Shown here piece after piece: positions 2,380 to 42,212 of a stretch of 64,000 nucleotides of DNA (the first letter of the stretch is position 1; each line of letters opens with the position of its first letter). A program made the translations under genes and the position numbers. Where the stretch lies: contig CANLUY010000001.1 in the NCBI GenBank assembly GCA_947494435.1, positions 1,974,001 to 2,038,000 of the forward strand. The letters are read 5' to 3'. This stretch comes from an uncultured Litoreibacter sp. (GTDB lineage: Bacteria > Pseudomonadota > Alphaproteobacteria > Rhodobacterales > Rhodobacteraceae). A model generated the notes under the pieces. It had not been told where the DNA came from. It did no database searches and saw nothing but the letters and a program-made list of their open reading frames with translations.

Positions 2380-2453
2380 GCGGGTATGGTGAAATGGTAT
2401 CATAAGAGCCTTCCAAGCTTAAGGTGCGGGTTCGATTCCCGCTACCCGCTCCA
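2380..2453 (+). tRNA. tRNA-Gly (anticodon TCC)
   Basis: The acceptor arms GCGGGTA and TACCCGC pair, the T arm contains GGTTCGATTCC, and CCA is encoded. The anticodon loop CTTCCAA gives TCC. The anticodon stem has one weak pair at its outer end. Confidence 0.95.
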
Positions 2454-14720: not shown

Positions 14721-14795
14721 TGGTGCTGTGAGAGAGGATTGAACTCTCGACCTCACCCTTACCAAGGGTGTGCTCTACCACTGAGCTACCACAGC
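14721..14795 (-). tRNA. tRNA-Thr (anticodon GGT)
   Basis: On the minus strand GCTGTGG...CACAGC closes the acceptor, GTAGCTCAGTGGTAGAGC forms the D arm, and the anticodon loop TTGGTAA gives GGT. The T loop GTTCAATCC and an encoded CCA are present. Confidence 0.95.
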
Positions 14796-22563: not shown

Positions 22564-22638
22564 GCCCGGGTAGCTCAGGGGTAGAGCAGTGGATTGAAAA
22601 TCCTCGTGTCGGTGGTTCAAATCCGCCCCTGGGCACCA
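22564..22638 (+). tRNA. tRNA-Phe (anticodon GAA)
   Basis: GCCCGGG pairs with CCTGGGC, the D arm is TAGCTCAGGGGTAGAGCA, the anticodon loop TTGAAAA gives GAA, the T loop is GGTTCAAATCC, and CCA is encoded. Confidence 0.95.
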
Positions 22639-24637: not shown

Positions 24638-25258
24638 ATGATTTTTATCTTCGATCTTGACGGCACTCTGACCCAGCAGGAAACGCTGCCTCTGATTGCA
24701 GCTAAGTTCGGAAAGTCAGGCGAGATCGAAGCGCTGACGCGAGAGGCTGTCTCAGGTGTCGCGCCCTTCGAGCAGAATTTCATAAGGCGCGTTCAACAGC
24801 TTGGTACCTGCCCAGTTTCAGAGGTGTCGAATCTACTCGGCGGTGTATCTTGCTTTGAAAACCTCAAAGCGTTTATTCGCACGTATTCCGATCAATGCGT
24901 GATTGCGACGGGTAATCTTGATGTTTGGATTGAGCAACTCGTGGCTGGGTTCGGGTGCCCTGTCTTTTCTTCGACCTCTCAAAAACATGACGATGGGTCA
25001 GTCTCTGTCTTGAAGGTCTTACGAAAGGAAGACGTCGTTCGGCGCTATCAAGACCAAGGTCACCGCGTTGTGTTTATCGGAGATGGCGCAAATGATGTGG
25101 TTGCGATGCAAATGGCCGACGTGGCGATCGCCTGCGGGTTTTTACGTCCGGCAGAGCCCTGCGTGACGGCGGTCTGCGATGTTACAGTCCAAAGCGAAGA
25201 TGCGTTGTTGCGAGAACTCTCTATACTGGTCAAAGACAGCTTTTCGAACGTTATATAA
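24638..25258 (+). CDS. HAD family phosphatase, phosphoserine phosphatase-like
   Basis: The 206-aa protein has HAD motif I FDLDGTLT (D6, D8), motif II VIATGN, and motif IV GDGANDV near residue 148, with ADVAIACG after it. This layout fits the HAD-IB subgroup, which includes phosphoserine phosphatase and MtnX-like enzymes. No substrate can be assigned. It is a single gene, convergent with the deacylase, their 3' ends overlapping by eight bases. Confidence 0.82.
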   Translation: MIFIFDLDGTLTQQETLPLIAAKFGKSGEIEALTREAVSGVAPFEQNFIRRVQQLGTCPVSEVSNLLGGVSCFENLKAFIRTYSDQCVIATGNLDVWIEQLVAGFGCPVFSSTSQKHDDGSVSVLKVLRKEDVVRRYQDQGHRVVFIGDGANDVVAMQMADVAIACGFLRPAEPCVTAVCDVTVQSEDALLRELSILVKDSFSNVI

Positions 25259-26294
25259 TCTCATCTTCGTCAAAAAGCGGGTCCGCTTCCAATTGGGCTG
25301 TCATATCCTCAATCGTCGTTTCCGCCTTTTGCGGAGAGGCGACTTTTGCGATGTGGTAGACGGCATCGCCCTCATTGACGATTGGCATCACAGCGCGACC
25401 TATAATGAGGCCTGCAAAGTCTGCACTGATCTCTATTTCTTCGTCGCCAAACGGGTCGCAAACGGCTGCGAGAACCTCACCTTCCGCAACCACCTCGCCT
25501 TCTTCCTTAAAGGTGCGCAACAAGCCACCCGCCGGTGCGCGCAGCCACTTGGAACTAGAGCAAAGGATAGAAGCGGCCTTCGCCTTGCTGATGCCCTTTC
25601 GCGGCAAGCTTCCCATGTCGTGCATCACCCGCAAAATGCCAGCAACACCCGCGCGGACGGAAAACTCGTCAAAACGCAATCCTTCACCAGCCTCAAACAG
25701 CAAGACATCCACACCTTCGTCGCGCGCAGCCGCCCGTAAAGAACCCTCCCGCAGCGGGGATCGGACGATGGCGGGCGCACCAAACGCTTTGGCGCGGGCG
25801 AGAATAGACGGCGTATCTGGCGAAATACGAATTTGCGGCAGGTTCGTGCGGTTGATCGCGGCAGAATGCAGATCAATGCCAAAATCACATTTTGCCACGA
25901 CGTCTTTGAGAAACATCTGCGCCATACGTGATCCAAGTGATCCGCCTGAGCTTCCTGGAAAACACCGGTTCAGATCCCGACGGTCAGGCAAGTAGCGAGA
26001 GCGGTTGAGAAAGCCAAACGCGTTGACGATCGGGATCACCATTAACGTCCCGCGAAGTGAATTGAGGTTTGGTGTGCGCAGCAGGCGGCGCACGATTTCT
26101 ACACCGATGACCTCATCGCCATGAATACCTGCGCTTACAAACAAGGTTGGCCCGGGGCGTTTCCCGTGAATGACATGAACCGACATGTTGACCGGGGTGT
26201 GGTCAGACAGAGTGCTGATCGGCAGCTCTACCGTTTTGCGAGAACCGGGGGCGATCCGCACCGCGCCCAGTTCAAAATCGTCTCTTTTGGACAT
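25251..26294 (-). CDS. Succinylglutamate desuccinylase/aspartoacylase family zinc deacylase
   Basis: The 347-aa protein has the zinc-peptidase-like motif GIHGDEVIG with H58 and E61, a third ligand H143 in GIDLHSA, and the catalytic glutamate in LLFEAGEG near residue 217. A C-terminal beta-rich domain (about 250-330) looks biotin-carrier-like. Family members cleave amide bonds of acylated amino acids. The gene lies nine bases after rimK, so they form an operon. A role in trimming RimK-added glutamates is attractive but inferred from pairing. Confidence 0.87.
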   Translation of the reverse strand: MSKRDDFELGAVRIAPGSRKTVELPISTLSDHTPVNMSVHVIHGKRPGPTLFVSAGIHGDEVIGVEIVRRLLRTPNLNSLRGTLMVIPIVNAFGFLNRSRYLPDRRDLNRCFPGSSGGSLGSRMAQMFLKDVVAKCDFGIDLHSAAINRTNLPQIRISPDTPSILARAKAFGAPAIVRSPLREGSLRAAARDEGVDVLLFEAGEGLRFDEFSVRAGVAGILRVMHDMGSLPRKGISKAKAASILCSSSKWLRAPAGGLLRTFKEEGEVVAEGEVLAAVCDPFGDEEIEISADFAGLIIGRAVMPIVNEGDAVYHIAKVASPQKAETTIEDMTAQLEADPLFDEDEII

Positions 26295-26303
26295 TGAGGT
26301 GGC

Positions 26304-27209
26304 TTAACCTTTGCCTTTTGTCTTGGTCTTGCCGGGCTTGGCATGTTTTTCGAGGTGATCAATGATCTTACCTGCAATATCAAGCCCTGTTGCCTTCTCG
26401 ACCCCTTCCAGACCCGGCGATGAATTGACCTCCATCACAACCGGACCGTGATTGGCTCGCAGCATATCCACGCCGCATACGGCAAGGCCCATCGACTTGG
26501 CGGCCCGCACGGCCGTTGCACGTTCTTCAGGGCTTATCTTGATGAGTTTGGCGGAGCCACCTCTATGTAGGTTTGAACGGAAATCGCCCTCAGCCCCTGT
26601 GCGCTTCATAGAGGCGATGACCTTGCCACCTACGACGATGGCGCGGATATCTGTACCGCCTGCCTCTTTGATGAATTCCTGTGCCATGATGTTCACATTG
26701 GCCCCGCGGAACGCCTCGATGACGGATTTGGCGGAGCGGCCCGTGTCGGCCAGAACCACACCGATGCCCTGCGTGCCTTCCAAGAGCTTGATCACCACGG
26801 GCGTCCCACCGGCAAGCTCTACAATATCGCCCGCCTTCTTGGCGTCATGCGCAAACGCTGTGACTGGCAGGCCGATCCCGTCGCGTGCCAGCAATTGCAT
26901 CGACCGCAGCTTGTCGCGCGATCGTCCAATGGCGACACTTTCGTTCAAAGGATAAACGCCCATCATCTCGAATTGGCGTAACACGGCGAGGCCGTAAAAT
27001 GTGACGGACGCCCCGATCCGCGGGATGACCGCATCATAGCCCAGCAGTTTCTCACCGTTGTAATAGATTTCGGGCCTGCGCGACGCGATGTTCATATAGC
27101 ATTGCAGGGTGTTGATGATGTCGAGCGTATGCCCTCGCTCTTCCGCGGCTTCCTTTAATCTCTTGTGAGAATAAAGATTGGCGTTGCGTGCGAGCATAGC
27201 AATTTTCAT
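26304..27209 (-). CDS. rimK: RimK-type ATP-grasp ligase (ribosomal protein S6 glutamate ligase-like)
   Basis: The 301-aa protein is RimK-like over its full length: [18 protein letters not shown] at the start, [20 protein letters not shown], the ATP-grasp core [34 protein letters not shown] and the metal site [14 protein letters not shown]. RimK adds glutamates to the C-terminus of ribosomal protein S6 and tunes translation. The length matches E. coli RimK (300 aa). It is the first gene of a two-gene operon with the zinc deacylase. Confidence 0.93.
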
Positions 27210-27337
27210 GAGACATCCTTCGCTGAAATGGCGGGCATAAAGAGACAGCCTAGGAGGTTTCGCTCTGAATTGTAAGCGCTTGGTCGCGGAATGAAATTTA
27301 CTCTATCTTAAAGCTCTTTCGCGCAAATATGCAGGTG

Positions 27338-28198
27338 ATGTCTGAGCTTGCCGTTGTCATTCCACATTTCAATGATCCAGAGCGGTTGCGCCGCTGTCTG
27401 ATGGCACTTGAGCCGCAGATAGATGAGGCCGTGCAGGTCATTGTCGTGGACAATAATTCAACCACCTCAATCTTGCCGATGCTTGATGAATTTCCGTGGT
27501 CGCGTTTCGCGGTAGAAGAAGACGCGGGCGCAGGATTGGCGCGTAACCTTGGCGTCGCGCTGACCACAGCGCCGCGACTGGCCTTTATTGATTGTGATTG
27601 TGTGCCGGGCCCCGATTGGGTCGCACATGCGCGCGGCCTTTCGCTGGGCGACCAAATTGTCGGCGGGCGGGTTGATACGTTCCACGAGGGCGAAGGCCCT
27701 TTGAATGGTGCACAGGTGTTCGAGCATGTGTTTGCTTTCGACATGGCGCGCTATGTCGCGCGGCAAGGGTTTTGTGGCAGCGGCAATATGGTTCTCCTAA
27801 GAGATGTGTTCGAGATTGTCGGTCCGTTCCGCGCCAATGTCGCGGAAGATATGGAATGGTGCCACAGGGCAGGGCGCACCGGGTTCGATATTGTCTATGA
27901 TGATGCACTCGTCGCCGCACATCCGACGCGTGGGGATTGGTCGGCGTTGAAACGAAAGTGGCGACGCTTGGCAGCGGAACGCTTCACCTTGGATGCGACC
28001 TCTGGACGCGGGCGTTTGAAATGGAGCGGGCGGGCGGTGTTGACAGCCGCAAGCATCTTGCGCGACGCGCCCCGCGTCTTGTGGACGGGCCGCTTGAGCA
28101 ATGCGCAAGACAGGTTGAGATGTCTTATGACCCTGATCCGGCTACGCGTTTTGCGGGCGTTTTGGATGGGGCGTCAGGCGGTGACAGGGAAAGCTTAG
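27338..28198 (+). CDS. Glycosyltransferase family 2
   Basis: The 286-aa protein is a GT-A fold enzyme: [16 protein letters not shown] at the N-terminus, VIVVDNNST, the AGLARNLG segment and the metal-binding acidic motif FIDCDCVPG near residue 92, with the later [11 protein letters not shown] loop as catalytic base region. Start ATG 27338 (MSELAVV) has GCAGGTG ahead; an ATG three codons earlier lacks a site. It probably adds a sugar to a surface polymer or lipid. It is a lone gene, convergent with dtd, sharing four stop-codon bases. Confidence 0.85.
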
Positions 28199-28638
28199 GC
28201 TTGATCGTCCATCCAGATTGTCACGGGTCCATCATTCACCAGACTGACCGCCATATCTGCACCAAATTGACCTGTTGCGACAGGTACACCCAATTCACAC
28301 AAGTCTTGCGCAAAAGCCTCATACAGAGCGCGCCCGACTTCCGGCTTAGCTGCTGTGGAAAATCCAGGGCGATTGCCGCTGCGGGTGTCAGCGGCCAGCG
28401 TGAATTGACTGACGACCAAAGCCGCGTCGCCCGTGTCCAAGAGCGAGCGGTTCATCTTGCCAGCCTCATCACGGAAAATGCGCAGCTTTGAAACTTTTGC
28501 AGCAAGCTTGGCTGTCTGCGCGGGCTGATCGCCGTCCATGGCGCAGATCAGGATAAGAAGCCCTGCGTCAATCTCTCCGATACATGTGCCCTCAACCGTT
28601 ACGGAAGCTTGGCGCACGCGCTGGATCAGCGCCCTCAT
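28195..28638 (-). CDS. dtd: D-aminoacyl-tRNA deacylase
   Basis: The 147-aa protein matches [20 protein letters not shown], the catalytic SQFTL motif near residue 78, the [11 protein letters not shown] segment, and near the end NDGPVT, a variant of the family's GPxT motif with aspartate before glycine. DTD removes D-amino acids and glycine from mischarged tRNAs. It overlaps the upstream kinase gene by four bases and ends the long minus-strand array. Confidence 0.95.
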
Positions 28639-29555
28639 AGCTCTGCGCGTGTGGGGGGATTTGCGCCTGCACGCGAGACGGTTACAGCGGCGCAGCGCGC
28701 GCCCATCGCCAAAGCGTGTTCAAGGTGCTCTTTAGACAGCGCCGCGATGCCAGATTTGCTCAAAGCGCCATTGTCCTGCAAGGATGCCAAAACACCGGCG
28801 TTGAACGTATCGCCCGCGCCGACGGTATCGACGACCTCAACCTTTTGGGATGGGACAAACACCCGTGTGTCTTTCGTATATCCCGTCGCCCCTTTTGCCC
28901 CTTCGGTGATCAGCACCAGTTTCGTACCGCGTGCAATGATGGCTTGAGCAAGGTCTGCGATCTCACCATCGCCTTCGAGCCATTGCAGATCTTCGTCGCT
29001 CAATTTGACGATGTCCGACAGGCTCATCATCGCTTGGATGCGTGCCACAAACGAGGCGCGGTCTTTGATGAAGCTCGGCCGGATGTTGGGATCAATCATC
29101 GTGGCACGTGTGCTGCCTTCGCGGGTCAGAAGGGCTTGAAACGCATCGGCGCTGGGGCCGGAGGCCAAGGAAATTCCACCGAAGAACAGCGCGTCCACGC
29201 TGTCGGGCAGGCTTGGCAAATCGGCCTCACGCAGAGAGGTCAGAGCGGAGTTTTCGTCGTAGAATGTGTAGGTTGCATGGCCATCCTGCAGCCGCACGAA
29301 GGCCAATGTCGTCGGCGCATCGGGGCGCGGTGACAGATCGACGGACACGTCCGAGCCGTGCAATTTTTCAACCAAAAGCTCGCCGAACAAATCAGACGAA
29401 AGCGGGCAAAAGAACCCCGGTTTTGCCTCAAGCCGTCCCAAAGCAATTGCCGTGTTGAACACCGCGCCGCCCGCATAGGGGGCAAATGCCTGCTCTCCCG
29501 CCGTGGTTTCCCGCGGCAGCATGTCGATCAGGGCTTCTCCGCAACATAGGATCAT
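28635..29555 (-). CDS. PfkB family carbohydrate kinase (fructokinase-like)
   Basis: The 306-aa protein has the ribokinase fold: an N-terminal [26 protein letters not shown] (substrate-binding), and the PfkB signature [14 protein letters not shown] near residue 245 with the catalytic aspartate. Its beginning resembles bacterial fructokinases. It phosphorylates a sugar with ATP in the cytoplasm. It overlaps both neighbours by four bases (zinc-ribbon gene upstream, dtd downstream), so it is co-translated with the module although a metabolic link is not obvious. Confidence 0.88.
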
Positions 29556-30640
29556 TGTTGTTGTGCCATTCCATAACCTATGGCCGCTGCAACCAGCAGC
29601 CCGATGATAACCGCGATTGCGATCTTGATAGCTGAATAAGGACGCTCCCCCCGCACGGCGCCGGTCTGGCCGTTGACGACGAAGCGGTAGGTAGCGCCAC
29701 GATACTTATAGGCCGCCATCCAGACCGGCAGCAGAATATGTTTGAACGTCACGTTGCTGACATCCGTGTCAACGCTGTGAATGCGCTGGCGGTCGCCGCC
29801 AATGTCAAAGCGCACATCGCGGGTGATCGTGTTGTCCATCACTGTGCGCGCCTCGGCAAAGCCGTCATCCAGCGCGATTGTGTAGGCCTCCGCGCGAAAG
29901 CCTGCGAGGTATTCCGGCGAATAGGGGCTGAGATGCGCAAGGTCCCAAGGCGCAAGCGCGTCCGTGTAGGGCCTTGGCAGGGAATTTGAGGCAAGCACCA
30001 GCACGTCGTCAAAATCGCGCGCCACCCGTCCACGGACGCGGTTCCAGCGGGTTTTTGTGACCATGACATCGACTTTTTTGCCGTCGCGGACCACCGTTTG
30101 TCTGACCTGATAGTCAACGCCGCGTTCACCGGAATAGGATGACTTCGTATCCGCGTCATAGGTCCAATACGGTACATAAATTCCGTCGAGCTTTCGGCCC
30201 TTCTTGGCGTATTCCTGCAAGCCGTTCGGGGCAAACCAACGCCGCCCGAGCCAGTCGACCATGGCTTTGCGCGCGGCGCGTTCGTCTAATTCAAACGGCA
30301 CCACGCCTTTGGGTTTGATATGGCGGTGCGCCCCTGTGTCGGCCACTACAGGTGTGGCGCAAAACGGGCATTCGGTTGCGTGGATATCGGGGTCGAATTC
30401 AACTTGCGCTGCGCAATTGGGGCATTGTGTGACGCGGGTTTCTTCCATCTCGGCCTCGGCCAAGGCGCCGCGCACGGCGGAATTGAAGTCGAGCTCTCGG
30501 ATCGCGCGGGACCTGCCTTCGGTGACCGCTTCGGTGTTGCCGCAATGGGTGCAGGTCAGCAGGTGTTCACCGGGCGTGAACTCCATATCCGAGCCGCAAT
30601 TGTCACAAGGAAAGCGGTGTTCTTGGGTGATCGCGTTCAT
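29552..30640 (-). CDS. TFIIB-type zinc-ribbon membrane-anchored protein
   Basis: The 362-aa protein has two zinc ribbons, C12/C15/C30/C33 and C73/C76/C91/C94, a globular domain (about 110-330) with YVPYWTYDADT and PVWMAAYKY segments, and one C-terminal membrane helix near 337-357. Such proteins are often misnamed replication factor Y or helicase; no helicase motif is present. B. subtilis YdjG has a comparable zinc-ribbon/membrane plan and works with the SPFH protein YdjI. An SPFH gene lies two genes upstream here, so a membrane-anchoring partner role is a reasonable inference. Confidence 0.75.
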   Translation of the reverse strand: MNAITQEHRFPCDNCGSDMEFTPGEHLLTCTHCGNTEAVTEGRSRAIRELDFNSAVRGALAEAEMEETRVTQCPNCAAQVEFDPDIHATECPFCATPVVADTGAHRHIKPKGVVPFELDERAARKAMVDWLGRRWFAPNGLQEYAKKGRKLDGIYVPYWTYDADTKSSYSGERGVDYQVRQTVVRDGKKVDVMVTKTRWNRVRGRVARDFDDVLVLASNSLPRPYTDALAPWDLAHLSPYSPEYLAGFRAEAYTIALDDGFAEARTVMDNTITRDVRFDIGGDRQRIHSVDTDVSNVTFKHILLPVWMAAYKYRGATYRFVVNGQTGAVRGERPYSAIKIAIAVIIGLLVAAAIGYGMAQQQ

Positions 30641-30643
30641 CGG

Positions 30644-31213
30644 TCAGAGGAACCTGTGCAAAACCTTTGGTGCCATGATACGCAGGGCATTATCACGCAA
30701 GGCGATGTGCCGCCACAGGTGAAATATTGCGTGAAATCCAACCAGACCTGCGAGTGCATAAAACTGATAGGTGTGAAACAGCCCGACCAAGTGATTGGCC
30801 CGCGGGAAACCCAATGCAGGGGCAACGGGAATGATGCCGCCAGCCCATAGGATGACGGCGGAGGTCAGACCAAGAAGAAAGCCACCAAAGGCCACGGTGA
30901 ACAGACCCCAGACCAATGTGTGATGCATCAGCTTGTGCACTTTGCGCGCCCAGCCCGGCAGTTTCGGGCCCGGTCTGCTGGCCAGCCCTTTGCGCAAGTA
31001 CATTGCTGTCCAAAGCAGCGCGAGTGTCACGAAGATCAGCCCCATGACCGAATGGAACTGGAACACGACCGGACCCATCCGCCTTAGCGCGTCCGGATCT
31101 GCGAAGATGAACCAGACAAAGAACGGAATGATCCCCCAATGCAGCCATTTCAGCGCCGTGCGGCGCGCCGGCAGGTGTTTGGAGAAGGCAAAGGTCATCA
31201 TGTCCGAAGACAC
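30644..31213 (-). CDS. Cytochrome b561-type membrane protein
   Basis: The 189-aa protein has four predicted membrane helices with histidines placed as in bacterial b561 (CybB-like) proteins: LKWLHWGIIPF, FQFHSVMGL, KVHKLMHHTLVWG and GLVGFHAIFHLWRH. Two b hemes are expected, with quinol or superoxide as possible electron donors. Two starts exist, MSSDMMTF (31213) and MMTF (31201). It lies three bases ahead of the zinc-ribbon gene and 31 after the SPFH gene, so it belongs to the same array. It is unlike the b561 at 221-991. Confidence 0.82.
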   Translation of the reverse strand: MSSDMMTFAFSKHLPARRTALKWLHWGIIPFFVWFIFADPDALRRMGPVVFQFHSVMGLIFVTLALLWTAMYLRKGLASRPGPKLPGWARKVHKLMHHTLVWGLFTVAFGGFLLGLTSAVILWAGGIIPVAPALGFPRANHLVGLFHTYQFYALAGLVGFHAIFHLWRHIALRDNALRIMAPKVLHRFL

Positions 31214-31244
31214 GATGCGATATGCGGTTAAGTTTCGGATCGCC

Positions 31245-32366
31245 CTAGCGCGCCGGTGGCGGCGGTGGTGGCAGGATCGTGAAAAGCTGCGCCAGTTCGG
31301 TCACATCTTCTGCGGCCATCCAACCATCTTGACCAGGCGTCCAGACCATCGTGTCACGCGCCAACCCGCCTTCCGCTGCCATGCGTCCCAAGGCCGCTTT
31401 TGAAAACGGCCCCTTCGTCTCGCCATTCTCAGCAATATGCCAAACGTGCTCCACCGGGGGGGGGGGAGGGGGCGGTGCTGCGGCGGGCGCGGCGCCCCAT
31501 GGGCCTTGCTGCATTTGGTTCGCCATTTGCGTGGCCATCGCCATGCCCATGCCAGCCCCAAGCCCTGCGCCCATACCACCGCCGCCATTTGGGTTGCGCG
31601 CGGCGGCTGTCATGGCTTCCGCGGCGGAGTATTGCGTGAACTTGCCCAGATCACCCGCGATCCCCATGGAGGAACGCTTGTCCAAGGCCTCTTCAACAGC
31701 GGGCGGGAGGGACACGTTTTCAATGTAGAATTCTGGGATGCTCAGCCCGTAATCCCCCACGATGGGAGAGATAGCGGATGCAATCAGCTTGCCCAGATCG
31801 CCCGTGTTGGCGGCCATGTCCAGTGCCGGGATACCGGCGCTACTGATCGTGCGGGAGAATTCCTGTACGATGATGTTGCGGATCTGATAGCTGATCTCGT
31901 CCATTGTGAATTCACCATCAGTGCCCACGATCTCCGTCAGGAATTTCGCAGGATCAGAGATGCGCGTCGAATAAGTGCCATAGGCACGGATGCGCAGCGG
32001 TCCGAACTCAGGATCACGCAGCATGATCGGGTTTTTTGTACCCCATTTCAGATCGTTAAAGCGCGTTGTGTTGACGAAGTAGACTTCCGATTTGAACGGG
32101 CTTTTGAAGCCGTGATCCCAATGGTTCAGCGTCGTTAGGATCGGCATGTTGTTGGTTTCAAGGAAATACATCCCCGGCGTGAACACGTCCGCCAACTGGC
32201 CCTCATGCACGAACACAGCCGCCTGACCTTCGCGGACAGTAAGCTTCGCGCCATATTTGATCTCGTGACCTTCACGGTCAAAACGCCAGACCATCGTGTC
32301 GCGCGTGTCATCGACCCAATGGATGACGTCGATGAACTGGCCGGAAAGGAAATCAAGAATACCCAT
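31245..32366 (-). CDS. SPFH domain protein with C-terminal GYF-like domain (YdjI type)
   Basis: The 373-aa protein has an SPFH domain (about 30-230; QAAVFVHEGQLADVFTPG, FNDLKWGTKNPIMLRDPE), a glycine/methionine/alanine-rich linker (about 255-300), seven prolines in a row, and a GYF_2-like domain (about 305-365; WHIAENGETKGPFSKAALGRM). It resembles the virion-core-protein-like COG4260/YdjI group. SPFH proteins form membrane-associated rings or scaffolds. The proline run is encoded by a G11 tract on the plus strand, a slippage-prone site. Neighbours suggest a membrane-stress role. Confidence 0.87.
   Translation of the reverse strand: MGILDFLSGQFIDVIHWVDDTRDTMVWRFDREGHEIKYGAKLTVREGQAAVFVHEGQLADVFTPGMYFLETNNMPILTTLNHWDHGFKSPFKSEVYFVNTTRFNDLKWGTKNPIMLRDPEFGPLRIRAYGTYSTRISDPAKFLTEIVGTDGEFTMDEISYQIRNIIVQEFSRTISSAGIPALDMAANTGDLGKLIASAISPIVGDYGLSIPEFYIENVSLPPAVEEALDKRSSMGIAGDLGKFTQYSAAEAMTAAARNPNGGGGMGAGLGAGMGMAMATQMANQMQQGPWGAAPAAAPPPPPPPVEHVWHIAENGETKGPFSKAALGRMAAEGGLARDTMVWTPGQDGWMAAEDVTELAQLFTILPPPPPPAR
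31456..31466. repeat. Eleven-G homopolymer inside the SPFH gene
   Basis: G x11 on the plus strand encodes prolines between the SPFH part and the GYF-like domain. A one-base slip would frameshift and remove the GYF-like domain. Confidence 0.9.
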
Positions 32367-32390
32367 GTGGTCCTCGTTTGAAGTGAAGTG

Positions 32391-33341
32391 TTAACTTTCG
32401 CCGCCAAGTAACTCAGCAGCAATGATATCTACAACCGGCCGTGCCTCATTCGGGGTGGCCCCGAGCGGCAAGCGCTTGTCGTAGAGGATTTTCAACAGCA
32501 GCTCATCATGGCTGGTCAGAAGGGCGAATTCATCGTCATCATTGAAGATTGACGGCCGCGCTGCGGGGCTATCATTGCTCAGGCCAAGACCTTGGGCGAT
32601 CTCTTCATGAAAGCAGCTGTCGCGCAGAAGCTTGGGATGTTCGGCGCGTACAATGGCGATCGCGGAATGGAAGTTGTCAGGGTTATCCGCGTCTGAGAAC
32701 GCATAGACCGCACAGTAAACCGGGCGCGGCATATTCGTGATTTGGTCCGCCAGATTGGCACCAAGCCCCGGGAAAAGCTTCATCAGTTTCGGCGCATACG
32801 CGTCCAACTCGTCAACGGTCAAAACCGCTACGGTGAAATTGCCACGACGCTGGTTCAAGGCAATGTCTAAACCTGTGAGCCGCGACAGTCGTCCAGCGTA
32901 ACCGGCGACGGTCGTGCGGGACTCCCGCTTGATCTCGTCCGAGACGGCCGGCCCAAAATCCATGGTAAGGCGCACAGGTTTGTTCCAGCGTTGCACCTTA
33001 CCCTCGGATTTGCGGTCCTCATACGTGCCGCCTGAGAAGGTGAATTCGTTGAACACACCGATTTGTACGAAGTTGCGCACAAGGTCGCGCTTGGAAAACG
33101 GCGTGTCGATCCCGCCGCCATCACGGCGCATCAGACCTTGGGCGACCAGTTGGCGTTGCACGGTCTCATAGTAGGCTGCCAATGCGACGCTGCGTTCCGA
33201 GGGTTGAACAGGGGGCGCCGGTGCTACAACTGGCTGCGCCTTTCGCTGTTCAGGGCGGGGGCTGGATACGGGTTCTTCACAGGCTGCGAGCAAAAATGCG
33301 CCCGCAACCAAAAGCCCGAATTTTGTGCCCCACCGTCCCAT
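32391..33341 (-). CDS. DUF2927 lipoprotein
   Basis: The 316-aa protein has a lipobox (FLLAAC, cysteine 20) after a hydrophobic signal, so it should be lipid-anchored facing the periplasm. A proline-rich linker (about 22-48) leads to a DUF2927 domain (about 75-310) that includes SCFHEEIAQGLGLSND, which looks like an HExxxxxG zinc-peptidase remnant (HEE-IAQGLG). Function is unknown. It starts 2 bases after telA and sits 24 bases before the SPFH gene, so it is part of the array and may be its periplasmic sensor. Confidence 0.82.
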   Translation of the reverse strand: MGRWGTKFGLLVAGAFLLAACEEPVSSPRPEQRKAQPVVAPAPPVQPSERSVALAAYYETVQRQLVAQGLMRRDGGGIDTPFSKRDLVRNFVQIGVFNEFTFSGGTYEDRKSEGKVQRWNKPVRLTMDFGPAVSDEIKRESRTTVAGYAGRLSRLTGLDIALNQRRGNFTVAVLTVDELDAYAPKLMKLFPGLGANLADQITNMPRPVYCAVYAFSDADNPDNFHSAIAIVRAEHPKLLRDSCFHEEIAQGLGLSNDSPAARPSIFNDDDEFALLTSHDELLLKILYDKRLPLGATPNEARPVVDIIAAELLGGES

Positions 33342-33343
33342 GT

Positions 33344-34531
33344 TTATCCGGCGCTACCGCCGATATTGTCGCCACTGCCGGTGCTGCGGGCTTTTGCCGA
33401 GGCCAACGTGTCGCGTAGCTCTGCCTCCATTTGGTCCAGTTTATCCTCGGCTTCGGCGCGCTTGCGTTTGCCTTCATCCGCGATTTGCAAGCTTTCATTG
33501 ATGGTGGCGACCAAATCGTCATTGGCTTGCTGGACCGCTTCGATGTCGAAGACGCCACGCTCCATTTCCTCGCGGATGGATTTGTTGGCCATGCGCAGGT
33601 TTTCGGCGTTGGATTTCAGTAACTCGTTGGTCAAATCATTGGCGTCGCGCACAGCGCCGGCGGCCTCAGCAGAGCGTTGGATTGTCAGCGCTTGCGCCAG
33701 TTGGGTTTCCCAAAGCGGCACGGTGTTGACGAGCGTGGAGTTGATCTTGGTGACAAGCGATTTGTCATTTTCCTGCACCAACCGGATGGAGGGCAGGGAT
33801 TGCATCGTCACCTGACGCGTCAGTTTCAGGTCATGCACGCGGCGTTCCAGATCGTCACGTGCGGCCCGCAGGTCACGCAATTCTTGGGCGACCATGACTT
33901 TTTTGTCTTCCGCCGCAGCCTCAACTGCCGCTTCTTTCGCAGGGATATCATTTGCATCAAGCTCAGCGATCTTCTCTTCACCTGCGGTGATATACAGTGC
34001 CAATTCGTCGTAGAAATCGAGCGTGCGTTCATAGAGAACATCCAACGACTTGATGTCCTTCAGAAGCACATGCTCATGTTGCAGCAAGTCATCTGTGATT
34101 TTGTCGATCTGGCCTTGCACAGTTTCATACTTCGCCATGAACATTGCGGCAGGCTTGGCTTTGCCCAGCAGCTTTTCCCACCAAGACCGCTTGCGGTTCG
34201 GATTCAATTCCGAGACGGAGAAACCGCGGATCGTCGTCACGATATCACGCAGGGAGTTGCCAGCAGGACCGACATCTTTGTTCTTCACATCGGCCAGCAT
34301 GGATTGGCTGATCTCTTGCAACCCTGCCTGCGCGTTGGAGCCGAAGGACACGATGGAGTTGGTATCCGTCATATCAATCTCGTCCATCCGCTTGCGAATC
34401 TCGGCCGCGACAGGCGCATCGGCCTTGGCAAGAGGGACCAGATCAGTTGAGGGTTCGGGCAGAACCACAGCGTTTACTTCATCCAGCAGGGCGACCGAGG
34501 CTTGTGCCTTCTCGCGAACGGTTTCTGTCAT
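33344..34531 (-). CDS. telA: Toxic anion resistance protein TelA family
   Basis: The 395-aa protein matches TelA (PF05816): DTNSIVSFGSNAQAGL near residue 50, LRDIVTTIRGFSVSELNPNRKRSWWEKLLGK, and a long helical coiled-coil region up to about 380 with IRLVQENDKSLVTKI and TVPLWETQLAQAL. TelA proteins are linked to tellurite and other membrane-active stress; the mechanism is not known. It lies 22 bases after xpaC, the pairing seen in Bacillus (xpaC-yaaN). No membrane helix is visible. Confidence 0.93.
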   Translation of the reverse strand: MTETVREKAQASVALLDEVNAVVLPEPSTDLVPLAKADAPVAAEIRKRMDEIDMTDTNSIVSFGSNAQAGLQEISQSMLADVKNKDVGPAGNSLRDIVTTIRGFSVSELNPNRKRSWWEKLLGKAKPAAMFMAKYETVQGQIDKITDDLLQHEHVLLKDIKSLDVLYERTLDFYDELALYITAGEEKIAELDANDIPAKEAAVEAAAEDKKVMVAQELRDLRAARDDLERRVHDLKLTRQVTMQSLPSIRLVQENDKSLVTKINSTLVNTVPLWETQLAQALTIQRSAEAAGAVRDANDLTNELLKSNAENLRMANKSIREEMERGVFDIEAVQQANDDLVATINESLQIADEGKRKRAEAEDKLDQMEAELRDTLASAKARSTGSGDNIGGSAG

Positions 34532-34553
34532 CTCATTCCTCCTTGGACCGCGC

Positions 34554-35423
34554 TTAGGTGCGCGGCGTGATGCCTTCGCGCTGCAAACGATCGCGCAGCA
34601 CGTCGATTTCGATCTCCAGATCGTCTTTGCTGTTAACCAACAGCTTTTGGTTTTTCGCGGTGAAATTTCCTTCTAGATCGTCCAGCAACGCGGTGAAATC
34701 CGCTTTCGCGGCTTCATCCGGCGTTCGGGCAGTCAGGTCCACATATTTCGTCGTCGCGTCACGCGCACCTTGCAGATAAACGCCCAAATAGCGCCTTGCC
34801 GTGCGCAGATCACGCGGGTCGTTTTCGATGGTCCGAAACATCTCACGTGCTGTTGTCATGAAACCGTCGACCCGCGCAATCAGGACGCGGTCCTTTGTTG
34901 CCTCGATCGCTGTTTTCATCGATCTCAAGTGGCGTTCCGCCTCATCAATGGCTTTCGCCACGCGGTCGTTTTGAAATTCGTCTACGCCTTCAAGCGTTTT
35001 ATTGCGCATCGGGTCCAGACCGAAAGAAAACAGGTGCAGACCGGCTGCGATGGCTCCGTACAGGAGGCCATTGATTAATCCGCCGTCAAATGTGGCAAGT
35101 CCTACGCCCAATCCCAAAAGACCTGCGCCAAACAGCTTTCGTGGAATGGCCGGCCGGCGGGAGATCGTCCGGGCGTTATATGCCTCTTCTGCTTCCAGCC
35201 CTTCGCGGGTGAGCCATGCGGCGAGTGCGATGGAGGCGAAGGCCAAGAGGTTCAAGGCCAACCCCGTGGGTCCGCTGCCAAAGGCCGTAAGCAGAAGGGG
35301 GATCGCAGCCACAGCCAGCAAAATTGCGCGAGATCGTCCGCGTTGGGGCGCTGCATGCCGCAAGGCCCCCTGTTTCTTGGGAGACTTATTCGGGCTGAAC
35401 TGCCCGCCATAGCGTTGGGCCAT
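34554..35423 (-). CDS. XpaC-like 5-bromo-4-chloroindolyl phosphate hydrolysis family protein
   Basis: The 289-aa protein starts at ATG 35423 (MAQRYGGQFSPNK). After a basic N-terminal tail come membrane helices near 30-65 and 95-130. The C-terminal half is helical and matches the XpaC family (PF10112): DEFQNDRVAKAIDEAERHL, TAREMFRTIENDPRDLRTARRYLGVYL. XpaC is not proven to be a hydrolase; it is regularly beside TelA. The start overlaps the stop of a 26-codon membrane ORF (TGATG), so the two are probably coupled. Confidence 0.86.
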   Translation of the reverse strand: MAQRYGGQFSPNKSPKKQGALRHAAPQRGRSRAILLAVAAIPLLLTAFGSGPTGLALNLLAFASIALAAWLTREGLEAEEAYNARTISRRPAIPRKLFGAGLLGLGVGLATFDGGLINGLLYGAIAAGLHLFSFGLDPMRNKTLEGVDEFQNDRVAKAIDEAERHLRSMKTAIEATKDRVLIARVDGFMTTAREMFRTIENDPRDLRTARRYLGVYLQGARDATTKYVDLTARTPDEAAKADFTALLDDLEGNFTAKNQKLLVNSKDDLEIEIDVLRDRLQREGITPRT

Positions 35424-35503
35424 CAGAGCACTCCGACCGATGCGCCAAGCACCAAAACGAACAGCACCACATAGGCGAATTTCTGCATGACCGGAAAGGA
35501 CAT
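35423..35503 (-). CDS. 26-aa single-helix membrane peptide ahead of xpaC
   Basis: ATG 35503 to TGA 35425-35423 encodes MSFPVMQKF followed by a hydrophobic stretch (about residues 9-26, AYVVLFVLVLGASVGVL). A GGGGA site lies seven bases upstream. The stop overlaps the xpaC start (TGATG), giving a typical coupling arrangement, and the 69 bases to terC make it co-directional with the array. The peptide could be a small membrane partner of XpaC/TelA or a translational coupler. It is too short for database families and I know of no name for it. Confidence 0.55.
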   Translation of the reverse strand: MSFPVMQKFAYVVLFVLVLGASVGVL

Positions 35504-35571
35504 AGGTTCCCCACACTTCTCGACTTGGCCCCAATATAGGGGGACCAAGGGTCAGTTACCAGAAAATCACG

Positions 35572-36402
35572 TTAGTGGGTCTTGTGCGACTGCGCTGCGG
35601 CCCGCTCTGCTTCCAGTTTGCGGGCATAGCCGGACTGGATGAACTCGACAACAAACAACACGATGACAGAGAAATAGAAGGTCGTCTTGGACATCGGGAT
35701 AAGCGGATAGCCGAAAATTTTGATCGCAAGGCTGTCATCATGGGCAGCATGGCTGGCGGCAACGCCTGCTTCACCCAGCAGAACAACGCCCACAATCAGA
35801 AGGATGAACAAACCCAAGACTTCATACATGCGGTTCTTTTGCAGGAAGGTCGTTACACCATCGGCCAGCAGCAACATCGCGAGCCCCGAGATGATGATGG
35901 CGGTCGCGAGGACCGGGAAGACGTCGGTGATCGCAATTGCAGACAGAACCGAGTCGAACGAGAAGATCAGGTTCATAAAGACAATCAGCATCACCACCTT
36001 GAAGGCGGATTTGCCGGATTTCCCCTCAATATCTGCGTCCAAGTGCTGGACCGACAGCAAATGCCCGATCTCTTTGAAAGCCGTATACATGATGAACGCG
36101 CCACCGAAGACAAAAACACAGGTCGCAAAATTGACCCCTCCGGTCAGAATACCTTCCCATTCAAACACGTAGAATGGCTCAGTCAGCTTGCTCAGCAGGC
36201 TCACCATCACAAACAGCAAAATCACCCGCAACGCGACCGCTATGATGATCCCCCAAAAGCGCACAGCTTTCTGCTGGGCGACAGGCGCGCGTTGGCTTTC
36301 GATAGAGATATAAAGCAGGTTGTCGAAGCCCAAAACGGCTTGCAAGAAGCAAAGCATCAAAAGGTTGCCAAGGTTTTCGAAGGTCAGAAGGTCAGCGAAC
36401 AT
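35572..36402 (-). CDS. terC: TerC family integral membrane protein
   Basis: The 276-aa protein has about eight membrane helices and the TerC acidic motifs within them: AVLGFDNLLYI (D27) and NLIFSFDSVLSAI (D near residue 154). TerC/Alx proteins are linked to metal ion export, chiefly manganese, and to tellurite resistance. It is the first gene of the minus-strand Ter/TelA array, 95 bases after the pseudouridine synthase. It ends with a basic cytoplasmic tail (LEAERAAAQSHKTH). Confidence 0.9.
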   Translation of the reverse strand: MFADLLTFENLGNLLMLCFLQAVLGFDNLLYISIESQRAPVAQQKAVRFWGIIIAVALRVILLFVMVSLLSKLTEPFYVFEWEGILTGGVNFATCVFVFGGAFIMYTAFKEIGHLLSVQHLDADIEGKSGKSAFKVVMLIVFMNLIFSFDSVLSAIAITDVFPVLATAIIISGLAMLLLADGVTTFLQKNRMYEVLGLFILLIVGVVLLGEAGVAASHAAHDDSLAIKIFGYPLIPMSKTTFYFSVIVLFVVEFIQSGYARKLEAERAAAQSHKTH

Positions 36403-36497
36403 AAGTAAGATCCGGTCTTTTAGTGTCGTTGTTCTCTATACCTTGCATTACGTATGACACGGGGCAAGGGTTCCGATGTTTGGATTTTTACCCTCAA

Positions 36498-37298
36498 TCA
36501 GCGCCTTGGCTTTGGGGCGTTCCGGCGCTGCTGGGGCTTTTTCTTCGGGCGTGGGGCTGCGTCGTCAGGGGCGATGCCAAGCTGGTCACGCAAAACGCGT
36601 GCTTTGACTTCTTCGACCTCACCGCTCTTCAACTCATTTAATCGGAAGGGGCCGTAACTCACTCGGATCAAACGATTAACTTTTAAATCTACTTCTGCCA
36701 TGGCGCGCCTAATTTCACGGTTTTTGCCTTCGCGCAGGCCGACGGTCAGCCAAGCGTTTGCCCCTTGTTGGCGGTCGAGCGTCACCTCCATCGGTTGAAA
36801 GCGCTCGCCGTCTGCCGTGACGCCTTTGCGCAGCGGGTCGAAGGTTTTGTCTTCCGGGCGTCCGTTCACGCGCACACGGTAGCGGCGCAGCCAACCGGTA
36901 GAGGGCAATTCAAGCTGGCGTTTGATCCCGCCATCATTGGTGAGCAGCAAAAGCCCTTCGGAGTTGATGTCGAGCCGTCCGACGCTGACCACGCGCGGCA
37001 TCTCTTCCGGCAATGCAGCAAAGACCGTCTCGCGTCCTTTTTCGTCCTTTTCGGTCGTCACCAGTCCGATGGGTTTGTTGTAAAGCCAAAGGCGCGGTTT
37101 GTCGGGCGCGCCGACCTCTTTGCCGTCAAAGGTGATTTTATCAGACGCCGTTACATTCAGCGCGGGGCTGTCGATTACCTTGCCATTTACGCTCACGCGG
37201 CCAGCCGTTATCAATGCTTCCGCACCACGGCGCGAGGCCAAGCCTGCCCGCGCCAGTACTTTGGCGATCCGGTCGCCCTTTGGGGTGTTGTCTGTCAT
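36498..37298 (-). CDS. 23S/16S rRNA pseudouridine synthase, RsuA/RluB type
   Basis: The 266-aa protein has an N-terminal S4 domain ([21 protein letters not shown]), the catalytic motif [17 protein letters not shown] with D near residue 101, and the EGKNREIRR motif of the RsuA/RluB/RluE group. It isomerises a uridine in rRNA. A basic tail rich in KK and RR (about 245-266) resembles the RluB extension. The start MTDNTPKG at 37298 was preferred; longer frames extend into tadA on the other strand. It is divergent from tadA. Confidence 0.9.
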
Positions 37299-37353
37299 GG
37301 CACAGCCCCTAGCGCGTTGTGCGGCGTGAGGGAAGGGACTATGCCTGCGCATC

Positions 37354-37803
37354 ATGGTGTTCAGATCACATATGTCTGTCGCGTTGGAAGAAGCGCGTGC
37401 CGCTGCAGCAAGGGGAGAGGTGCCCGTTGGCGCTGTCGTCGTTTCACCTGAGGGTGCCGTCGTCGCGCGTGCTGGCAACCGGACGCGTGAGCTAAACGAC
37501 CCCTCAGCGCATGCGGAGATGCTCGCAATCCGCGCAGCCTGCGCGACCCTGAAGCTGGAACGTCTGACTGGCTACGACCTATATGTAACCCTAGAACCTT
37601 GCGCCATGTGCGCGGGCGTGATTGCAAACGCTCGGATTGCGCGGCTCTATTACGGCGCCGCTGATCCCAAGTCGGGCGGGGTGGCCGTGGGCGCACAAGT
37701 TTTCCGACATTATCAAGCGCATCATAAGCCTGAGATTTACGACGGAATTGATGCAATCGAATGTGAAGCGGTTCTGAAAGAGTTTTTCCGCTCACGACGC
37801 TGA
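37354..37803 (+). CDS. tadA: tRNA-specific adenosine deaminase TadA
   Basis: The 149-aa deaminase has the zinc and proton-shuttle motif HAEM (H53, E55) and PCAMC near residue 83-87. [16 protein letters not shown] fits TadA, which converts A34 to inosine in tRNA-Arg. A second in-frame ATG at 37372 is possible; the first keeps the usual N-terminal helix. It is divergent from the pseudouridine synthase gene with 55 bases between. A guanine or cytosine deaminase role is less likely given the length. Confidence 0.9.
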
Positions 37804-41734: not shown

Positions 41735-42127
41735 GCGCGGATGGCTGGATGGTCGAGGCGGTTTGATTTGCTATGCAATTAAAACGTCTAGGAAAGTCCG
41801 GACTCCATGAAGAAACGGTGCCGGGTAACGCCCGGCGGGGGCAACCCCAGGGACAGCGCCACAGAGAAGAAACTGCCTTGCATGCAAGGTGATGGTGAAA
41901 CGGTGCGGTAAGAGCGCACCGCGCGACCAGCAATGGAAGCGGCACGGCAAGCCCCACCGGGAGCAATGCCAAATAGGGACCTCGCGCGGGGGCAACTTCG
42001 CAGGGCATCTTCGGCCCGAGACGGTCCGGGTTGGCAGCTAGAGGAGCACCGGCAACGGTGCTTTGAGATGAATGATCATCCAGCGACTTCGGTCGTGGAC
42101 AGAATCCGGCTTACAGGCCATCCGCGC
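41735..42127 (+). ncRNA. rnpB: RNase P RNA, alphaproteobacterial type A
   Basis: The conserved core GAAAGTCCGGACTCC (P4 5' half region) and ACAGAATCCGGCTTACA near the 3' end are present, with AGAAACTGCC, GGTAAGAGCGCACCGC and the GAGACGG segments between. The P1 stem pairs GCGCGGATGG (41735-41744) with CCATCCGCGC (42118-42127), setting both ends. The RNA cuts tRNA 5' leaders. A weak hairpin with T run at about 42144-42179 may terminate it. Confidence 0.95.
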
Positions 42128-42212
42128 ATATCTTATACGACAAAACGCCCGCGGCGCGCGATGCTTTTGCGTTCTTTTTGGGGGCGTCGACCCCGAGCCG
42201 CACGGGCGAAAA

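Follow-up and report, generated by a model that had tools for sequence, protein, structure and literature searches.

Do the ten genes that run on one strand from terC to dtd in an uncultured Litoreibacter sp. encode a single membrane-stress system and, if not, which of them belong together? The genes lie in a stretch of 64,000 nucleotides (the window; GenBank assembly GCA_947494435.1, contig CANLUY010000001.1, positions 1,974,001 to 2,038,000 of the forward strand), to which all unprefixed coordinates refer. An initial annotation had merged TerC, a 26-residue peptide, XpaC, TelA, a DUF2927 lipoprotein, an SPFH protein, a b561-type cytochrome, a zinc-ribbon protein, a PfkB kinase, and the D-aminoacyl-tRNA deacylase Dtd into one system. 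Comparison of related loci reduced this array to a core of six genes in the order micropeptide-xpaC-telA-DUF2927-SPFH-zinc ribbon. In the reading that we favor, to which we assign a probability of about 0.58, the core would specify an inner-membrane maintenance complex working like PspA-YdjGHI of Bacillus subtilis, with TelA-XpaC in the place of PspA and with a periplasmic pseudo-metzincin.

A conserved core within a ten-gene array

Gene order was read by tblastn at the best 80 of 84 loci recovered in a TelA scan. Locus counts cover the 71 Rhodobacteraceae loci among these (L070, L073 to L078, L080, and L081 were left out), and each gene was counted only at loci with enough flanking DNA, hence the differing denominators. 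The nearest named loci were those of Litoreibacter (L002 to L008), with telA genes 84 to 93% identical to that of the window. The conserved gene order across Rhodobacteraceae on which the initial annotation had made its proposal depend was observed for the core, at 59 to 63 of 60 to 65 loci, with xpaC at 63/65, the DUF2927 gene at 60/62, the SPFH gene at 62/62, and the zinc-ribbon gene at 59/60. Two Thiothrix loci (L073 and L074) retain xpaC-telA-SPFH-zinc ribbon; tblastn gave no DUF2927 match at the Thiothrix loci, at those of Campylobacterota, or at L070.

The linkage was also evident in 121 whole genomes from the order, all labeled as one family and distributed over 58 genera. DUF2927 was present in 120 of them, TelA in 119 (118 full length), and the SPFH protein, above the cut-off, in 117. 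The telA and SPFH genes lay less than 6 kb apart on one strand in 115 genomes, and telA and the DUF2927 gene less than 3 kb apart on one strand in at least 113, five genomes (G008, G020, G023, G059, and G110) being scored as misses because their locus DUF2927 was not among the matches listed. The core is therefore nearly universal in the sampled genomes of Rhodobacteraceae, an abundant marine group. PspA (PF04012) was matched in 41 of the 121 genomes (40 above the cut-off) and, among the positions listed, never lay closer to telA than about 21 kb. None of the ten products matched PF04012, and the copy in the genome of the window is located at C1:1588468, more than 400 kb away. Because the other 80 genomes had no PspA match, the array may offer an alternative to the Psp system.

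Gene identities in the window were assigned by Pfam and NCBIfam profile searches of the products. The open reading frames and their translations placed all ten genes on the minus strand between 36402 and 28195, as first annotated. From terC to dtd, the junctions measure 68, -1, 22, 2, 24, 46, 3, -4, and -4 bases, eight of the nine being at most 46 bases long or overlapping. The SPFH-cytochrome junction is 46 bases long with the cytochrome ATG at 31198 and 31 bases long if the GTG at 31213 is used, so the gaps of mostly less than 35 bases in the initial annotation are true of seven or eight of the nine junctions, depending on this start codon.

Micropeptide, XpaC-TelA, and SPFH-zinc ribbon

The 26-residue frame upstream of xpaC (35423 to 35503, minus strand), which contains one hydrophobic segment and whose stop codon shares one base with the start of xpaC, matched no family in the profile searches. 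A short hydrophobic peptide ended at or beside the xpaC start at all 73 loci with DNA upstream of xpaC, the window included (70 by script plus L070, L061, and L030, the pick of the script at L070 being spurious; among the 77 loci with an xpaC match, L058, L060, L062, and L066 are cut inside xpaC and were left out). The Rhodobacteraceae pattern consists of a short polar start with QK, A(Y/F), one hydrophobic stretch, and a G-rich end, and one Leu is invariant in the 62 aligned micropeptides. The peptides of Thiothrix and Campylobacterota have diverged and comprise 24 to 34 residues.

Variation among the micropeptide codons was greatest at third positions. The ratio of nonsynonymous to synonymous polymorphism (pN/pS) in frame was 0.53 for 62 peptides, 0.42 within Litoreibacter, and 0.18 within Ruegeria; for the 60 rows free of gaps it was 0.54 in frame versus 1.0 and 1.5 in the shifted frames, for sequences that are related and pairs that are not independent. 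This codon test omitted L031, L047, L061, L070, L073 to L076, L078, and L080 (distant, two-helix, or unassigned) and L030. Among 20 genomes of the family fetched later, the micropeptide was found in 18 of the 18 that could be judged, by a script that ignored start codons and in genomes that may overlap the earlier loci. The other two lack xpaC upstream of telA (L157) or are cut at the xpaC start (L166), and in L174 a distance of 45 bases separates the end of the micropeptide from the place where xpaC should begin. The 26-residue frame is thus very probably a real gene selected as a protein, conservation and the codon test having ruled out a chance reading frame. At L019, L031, L045, and L047, a longer frame (64 to 65 residues in L045 and L031) encodes two helices, the second of which corresponds to the micropeptide.

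Since the micropeptide is present with or without terC, a tie to that gene was ruled out and the peptide goes with xpaC. The small membrane peptide of the initial annotation was therefore retained, with conservation and codon-level selection in its favor. Outside the order, it was detected at one of 20 TelA places (19 genomes). This place, in G317, encodes a TelA 48% identical to that of the window and is also the only one of the 20 with an XpaC match directly upstream, suggesting that the micropeptide marks one XpaC-TelA lineage. A role as a general partner of TelA was unsupported by this count, in which a strict filter and weak detection of XpaC make the negatives weak.

The xpaC gene (34554 to 35423, minus strand) encodes hydrophobic N-terminal segments, recognized by eye, and after them a PF10112 domain (E = 5.5e-27; family name, 5-bromo-4-chloroindolyl phosphate hydrolysis). 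It is followed by telA (33344 to 34531, minus strand; PF05816, E = 8.5e-110), whose all-helical product displays no membrane segment by eye. The TelA-XpaC pairing of the Ter/TelA stress module is present, and no TerD-type protein was matched among the ten products. The TelA alignment covered 49 of 81 sequences, and a structural model of TelA was a long helical hairpin of low confidence (mean predicted local distance difference test [pLDDT] score, 67.2). An ESCRT-III/PspA-like fold was considered for TelA and is unsupported at this pLDDT and by unspecific Foldseek results. Anti-phage defense was also rejected, the PADLOC matches being weak (TelA-PbeC, E = 7.6e-5; zinc ribbon-PDC-S64, E = 0.0034) and judged to be coiled-coil and zinc-ribbon background. 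The micropeptide would give direct access to the question of how XpaC-TelA, an envelope-stress pair that has long been known without being explained, meets the membrane; the searches revealed a described function for neither the micropeptide nor the DUF2927 lipoprotein.

The SPFH gene (31245 to 32366, minus strand) encodes a Band_7_1 domain (PF13421; E = 1.4e-99), also matched in the B. subtilis control genome, and a C-terminal GYF_2 domain (E = 1.6e-20). GYF_2 was found in the C-terminal part of all 19 SPFH proteins aligned (out of 66), which range from Rhodobacteraceae to Thiothrix and Campylobacteraceae. A polyproline run of at least three residues follows the GYF domain at the C-terminal end in 66/66 proteins, and another precedes it in all 64 proteins whose GYF domain was found by script, those of L073 and L074 having escaped detection. 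GYF domains bind proline-rich peptides, so self-binding of GYF and polyproline within or between SPFH proteins may be expected. Within the polyproline stretch, the window gene contains a run of 11 G (31456 to 31466; C11 in the coding strand), the longest C run in 65 related SPFH genes being 8 and mostly 5; slippage at C11 could drop the GYF domain.

The zinc-ribbon gene (29552 to 30640, minus strand) encodes a protein that combines a double zinc ribbon with a long conserved domain and has, by eye, a single hydrophobic segment at its C-terminal end. Its eight cysteines were invariant in the 19 sequences aligned (out of 60), and the protein had no match above a curated profile cut-off. The available text of PMC11237479 describes YdjG as two zinc ribbons, a further domain, and a membrane segment, an architecture that fits the YdjG-like reading of the initial annotation. 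No TPM (YdjH) domain was matched in the ten products.

The DUF2927 lipoprotein and the predicted metzincin fold

The gene between telA and the SPFH gene (32391 to 33341, minus strand; PF11150, E = 1.6e-49) encodes a protein with a lipobox at Cys21, recognized by eye. The residue at position +2 was acidic in 28 of 45 DUF2927 sequences with a recognized lipobox; in E. coli lipoproteins, Asp at +2 favors retention in the inner membrane. An AlphaFold2 model based on 48 of 63 DUF2927 sequences reached a pLDDT of 90.7 and a predicted template modeling (pTM) score of 0.85 and contains no ligands. The modeled elements are strand 123-129, helix 135-156, strands 160-162, 169-174, 210-217, and 220-232, and helices 237-251 and 277-286, in an order that agrees with that of metzincins. 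Among the best 50 of 652 Foldseek matches in the Protein Data Bank (PDB; E ≤ 10), 47 were metallopeptidases of the metzincin kind, namely, 44 matrix metalloproteinase (MMP) domains (in many cases repeat structures of a small number of proteins), two snapalysins, and one myroilysin. In these 50 listed matches, E values ranged from 0.011 to 0.17, with probabilities up to 0.99 and template modeling (TM) scores by target up to 0.65. The DUF2927 protein is therefore predicted, on the basis of this model, to adopt a metzincin fold.

The zinc motif of metzincins, HExxHxxGxxH, is absent and replaced by EExxQxxGxxND in all 67 aligned members, a set that adds 19 of 20 divergent sequences to the 48 and draws on Rhodobacteraceae as well as on genomes elsewhere in the phylum; weak matches beyond these 67, L084 aside, stand outside the motif count. 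In the window protein, helix 237-251 holds E246-E247-x-x-Q250, followed by G253, N256, and D257. The pattern C..EE..Q..G..ND was found in 67/67 sequences (with one V for G), the second cysteine, C210, being present in 66/67. The position preceding the first Glu is variable (H in 46, V in 8, Y in 7, Q in 5, and L in 1 of 67 sequences), so the HEE that seems to be present does not amount to a conserved pattern of ligands. The methionine of the Met-turn is also absent: the corresponding segment, equivalent by alignment only, is SIFND at 264-268, with F266 in 67/67. An ordinary zinc metzincin is thus ruled out by the motif. A weak third DUF2927 match in the same genome (L084; G000:C1:94595-94987; E, 5e-6), which may belong to a more distant branch, has EExxQxxGxxTD; counting this protein, which is outside the 67, would mean that Asn is not invariant.

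In a comparison with the bacterial M10 profile, the best local path, part of a non-significant match, ran ungapped at the motif (E246 with His, E247 with Glu, Q250 with His, G253 with Gly, and N256 with His) and paired LY with LY at its end. No sequence-level link between DUF2927 and M10 reached significance in the M10 comparison, in a profile search of PDB sequences, or in a Pfam scan of the 48 members, which detected no peptidase family. DUF2927 is therefore probably a pseudo-metzincin outside any peptidase family. The periplasmic lipoprotein of the initial annotation gained a lipobox and is refined to a predicted metzincin fold without the zinc histidines. A second, longer DUF2927 protein is encoded in the same genome (L082 and L093; G000:C2:240591-241196) by an open frame of 493 residues with the same EExxQ, and similar long frames, mostly of 450 to 515 residues, occur in many relatives away from the array. 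No paper naming DUF2927 was found in the open full-text literature, subscription papers being outside the scope of the search.

Replacement of three zinc ligands by residues that are themselves fixed in 67/67 sequences needs explaining, by a pseudoprotease or by new metal chemistry. Alternatively, DUF2927 might have enzyme activity or sense metal, coordinating a hard ion (Mn2+, Ca2+, or Mg2+) through Glu, Gln, Asn, and Asp, with TerC helping to load the ion during export. The invariance of both Glu residues (one at the general-base position), Gln, Asn, and Asp argues for this proposal, as does the contrast with nine pseudo-ADAM-type entries in the available text of PMC11266112, in which the base glutamate is lost. 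In B. subtilis, TerC proteins load Mn into exported Mn-dependent enzymes (PMC10550928, available in part). We nevertheless consider a hard-ion site unlikely, since terC is present at only 22 of 61 loci, the model is ligand free, and the distant L084 has Thr in place of Asn.

Optional genes, alternatives, and comparison with known systems

The fixed ten-gene system with a cytochrome did not survive the comparison, since the cytochrome gene, terC, and pfkB are each present at some loci and absent from others. The terC gene (35572 to 36402, minus strand; PF03741, E = 8.6e-37) encodes a TerC-family membrane protein whose nearest NCBIfam model, YkoY, scored 52.7 bits, under the cut-off of 138.5. 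The cytochrome gene (30644 to 31198, minus strand) is present at 13/60 loci, a distribution that ruled out the cytochrome as a fixed part, and is missing from the Litoreibacter relatives L005, L007, and L008. Its product matched PF01292 with 31.7 bits (E = 1.6e-7) against a cut-off of 30.1. Residues His 25, 54, and 161, which we take to be haem ligands, were invariant in the 12 sequences aligned (that of the window, 10 of 12 assigned slot cytochromes, and L025). The slot between the SPFH and zinc-ribbon genes is empty at many loci and filled at others, including by unrelated genes such as that for a CZB chemoreceptor zinc-binding domain at L057 (12354 to 12827, minus strand, opposite to the array). 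On a quick FastTree locus tree of 59 rows, which carried long-branch warnings and from which L020 was dropped for an odd zinc-ribbon frame, b561 was present in 14 of 57 rows with 7 changes, the figures for terC being 19 of 53 rows and 8 changes.

The initial annotation had also proposed that the cytochrome supplies or senses redox state, and a redox-coupled system of all ten genes, with cytochrome and TerC integral, would account for the recurrence of b561 in one slot across several clades, which is the sole support for this role. The Ruegeria loci L025 and L079 carry a different b561 in the same slot (that of L025, at 12398 to 12889, is 26% identical to the cytochrome of the window and matches PF01292 with E = 9.6e-20), hinting at repeated recruitment. 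The rarity of the cytochrome, its absence from the relatives L005, L007, and L008, and the occupation of the slot by unrelated genes make such a system very unlikely.

The last two genes of the array, pfkB (28635 to 29555, minus strand; PF00294, E = 3.6e-46), which encodes a PfkB sugar kinase, overlaps both neighbors, and is an optional passenger (22/57 loci), and dtd (28195 to 28638, minus strand; Tyr_Deacylase, E = 1.9e-54; TIGR00256 above its cut-off), are followed by a convergent glycosyltransferase gene (27329 to 28198, plus strand). At the other end, a gene with S4 and PseudoU_synth_2 domains (37298 to 36498) runs in the direction of the array and ends 95 bases before terC, so the transcript may start before terC. 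No sigma-70-like promoter was detected in 28100 to 37500, against a mean of 3.7 in shuffles, a result that carries little weight for an alphaproteobacterium, and no Rfam element within the block reached the gathering score. The conservation of dtd (46/57 loci) and of the upstream pseudouridine synthase gene (51/60), despite unrelated roles, would be expected of an ordinary conserved neighborhood with no shared function. We regard this explanation as quite improbable, in view of the tight or overlapping core junctions, the paired losses and splits described below, and the recurrence of xpaC-telA-SPFH-zinc ribbon in Thiothrix. Beyond the glycosyltransferase gene, a RimK-like ATP-grasp gene adjoins an AspA/AstE-type deacylase gene (25251 to 27209, minus strand). 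The window also contains a class A RNase P RNA (41737 to 42129, plus strand; 296.4 bits) and tRNAs at 2380 to 2450 (plus strand), 14724 to 14795 (minus strand), and 22564 to 22635 (plus strand).

The exceptional genomes, whose regions were read by comparison with the proteins of the window, split the core in a restricted number of ways. In G106, the 16 kb read lacked xpaC, telA, SPFH, and zinc ribbon (telA and SPFH were missing genome-wide too), and DUF2927, pfkB, and dtd were kept. In G011, terC was followed after 458 bases by DUF2927, xpaC and telA not being found there. G081 kept xpaC-telA-DUF2927, with SPFH absent genome-wide and the zinc ribbon absent from the 14 kb read. The telA-DUF2927 pair (without an xpaC match) and SPFH-zinc ribbon-pfkB were on separate contigs in G048, and in G110 a distance of about 11 kb separated xpaC-telA from SPFH, zinc ribbon, and two copies of DUF2927. 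In G085 (L090), a divergent gene, 27% identical to TelA, took the place of telA between the pseudouridine synthase gene and dtd.

Because these exceptions mostly move parts as pairs, XpaC-TelA and SPFH-zinc ribbon look like natural units. Two independent modules (micropeptide-XpaC-TelA and SPFH-zinc ribbon) could have been co-located with DUF2927 for shared expression rather than for one complex. The separation of the halves in G048 and G110, the absence of SPFH from G081, the solitary DUF2927 of G106 and G011, and the unlinked genes of genomes outside the order (see below) all speak for independence. We consider it doubtful, in view of the near-fixed adjacency in 115 of 121 genomes from 58 genera and of G106, where xpaC, telA, SPFH, and zinc ribbon are missing together.

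Returning to the favored maintenance complex, we infer a physical assembly with a stress function, a direction of signaling, and GYF-polyproline contacts. The SPFH protein would oligomerize on the cytoplasmic face, its GYF domain binding the flanking polyproline runs of the same or a neighboring molecule, and the zinc-ribbon membrane protein would anchor it, as YdjG helps to do for YdjI. This scaffold would gather helical TelA, which XpaC and the micropeptide would tether to the bilayer, so that TelA-XpaC would take the position of PspA in B. subtilis. DUF2927, with its zinc histidines swapped for Glu, Gln, and Asn, would be no zinc protease but a periplasmic arm for binding or regulation. TerC (probably for manganese) and b561 (for electron transfer) would be lineage add-ons, and PfkB and Dtd passengers.

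Several observations weigh against this complex. TelA resembles PspA by position only, since its model is poor and Foldseek returned assorted long-helix proteins with no specific fold match. For DUF2927, no Foldseek match passed an E value of 0.001, the comparison with the bacterial M10 profile gave a non-significant E value of 0.7, and the profile search of PDB sequences found no MMP. Among six Campylobacterota loci, xpaC-telA-SPFH was present in L076 only, the other five having no SPFH match, and L070 contained xpaC-telA only, again with no SPFH match. Outside the order, TelA and full-length Band_7_1 were adjacent in none of the five genomes having both (G130, G144, G193, G309, and G334, the telA contig of G193 being only 6 kb long), suggesting that the TelA-SPFH coupling is lineage bound. 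Finally, DUF2927 is not strictly dependent on xpaC-telA, as G106 and G011 keep it alone. A more ambitious version of the complex, a cross-envelope machine in which XpaC and the micropeptide would couple the SPFH-TelA scaffold to a DUF2927 site, rebuilt from the oxygen-carrying side chains E/E/Q/N/D, that binds a hard metal (Mn2+ or Ca2+) or a peptide, with TerC loading the metal and b561 reporting membrane redox where present, appears improbable to us. If it were true, DUF2927 would put the metzincin fold to a new use that does without zinc.

The open full-text literature (subscription papers being outside the scope) contained no paper joining TelA, XpaC, and SPFH, none in which "toxic anion resistance" occurs with SPFH and TerC, and none naming both Rhodobacter and XpaC. 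The TerC protein belongs to the family of MeeF and MeeY (PMC10550928), YkoY being its nearest NCBIfam model; it differs from them in falling under the YkoY cut-off and in being accessory at the array. Matrix metalloproteinases and other M10 enzymes resemble DUF2927 in the predicted fold and in an alignment without gaps at the active-site and C-terminal helices, and differ from it in possessing the three zinc histidines and the Met-turn methionine, all absent from DUF2927 by alignment; the sequence relation is not significant. The pseudo-ADAMs (PMC11266112) are likewise metzincin-type proteins with replaced zinc ligands. In contrast to them, DUF2927 is a bacterial lipoprotein that keeps both Glu residues and has a fixed E/E/Q/N/D set.

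As a whole, the core resembles pspA-ydjGHI of B. subtilis (PMC8581546 and PMC11237479), in which a Band_7_1/SPFH protein and a double-zinc-ribbon membrane protein also stand beside a helical membrane-care protein, and in which YdjI and PspA reach the membrane only with YdjG and YdjH (PMC8581546). The available text of PMC11237479 mentions neither TelA nor TerC. Unlike pspA-ydjGHI, the array has no pspA and no TPM (YdjH) match; it contains TelA-XpaC and the micropeptide instead, to which the DUF2927 lipoprotein is added. Judging by the descriptions, its SPFH protein is also set apart from YdjI by a tail of GYF and polyproline rather than a zinc ribbon. In Listeria, lmo1966 and lmo1967 encode adjacent XpaC and TelA homologues, and disruption of the TelA gene is reported to raise sensitivity to nisin and tellurite (PMC12791056). 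To this pair, the array adds a preceding micropeptide, the SPFH and zinc-ribbon proteins, and DUF2927.

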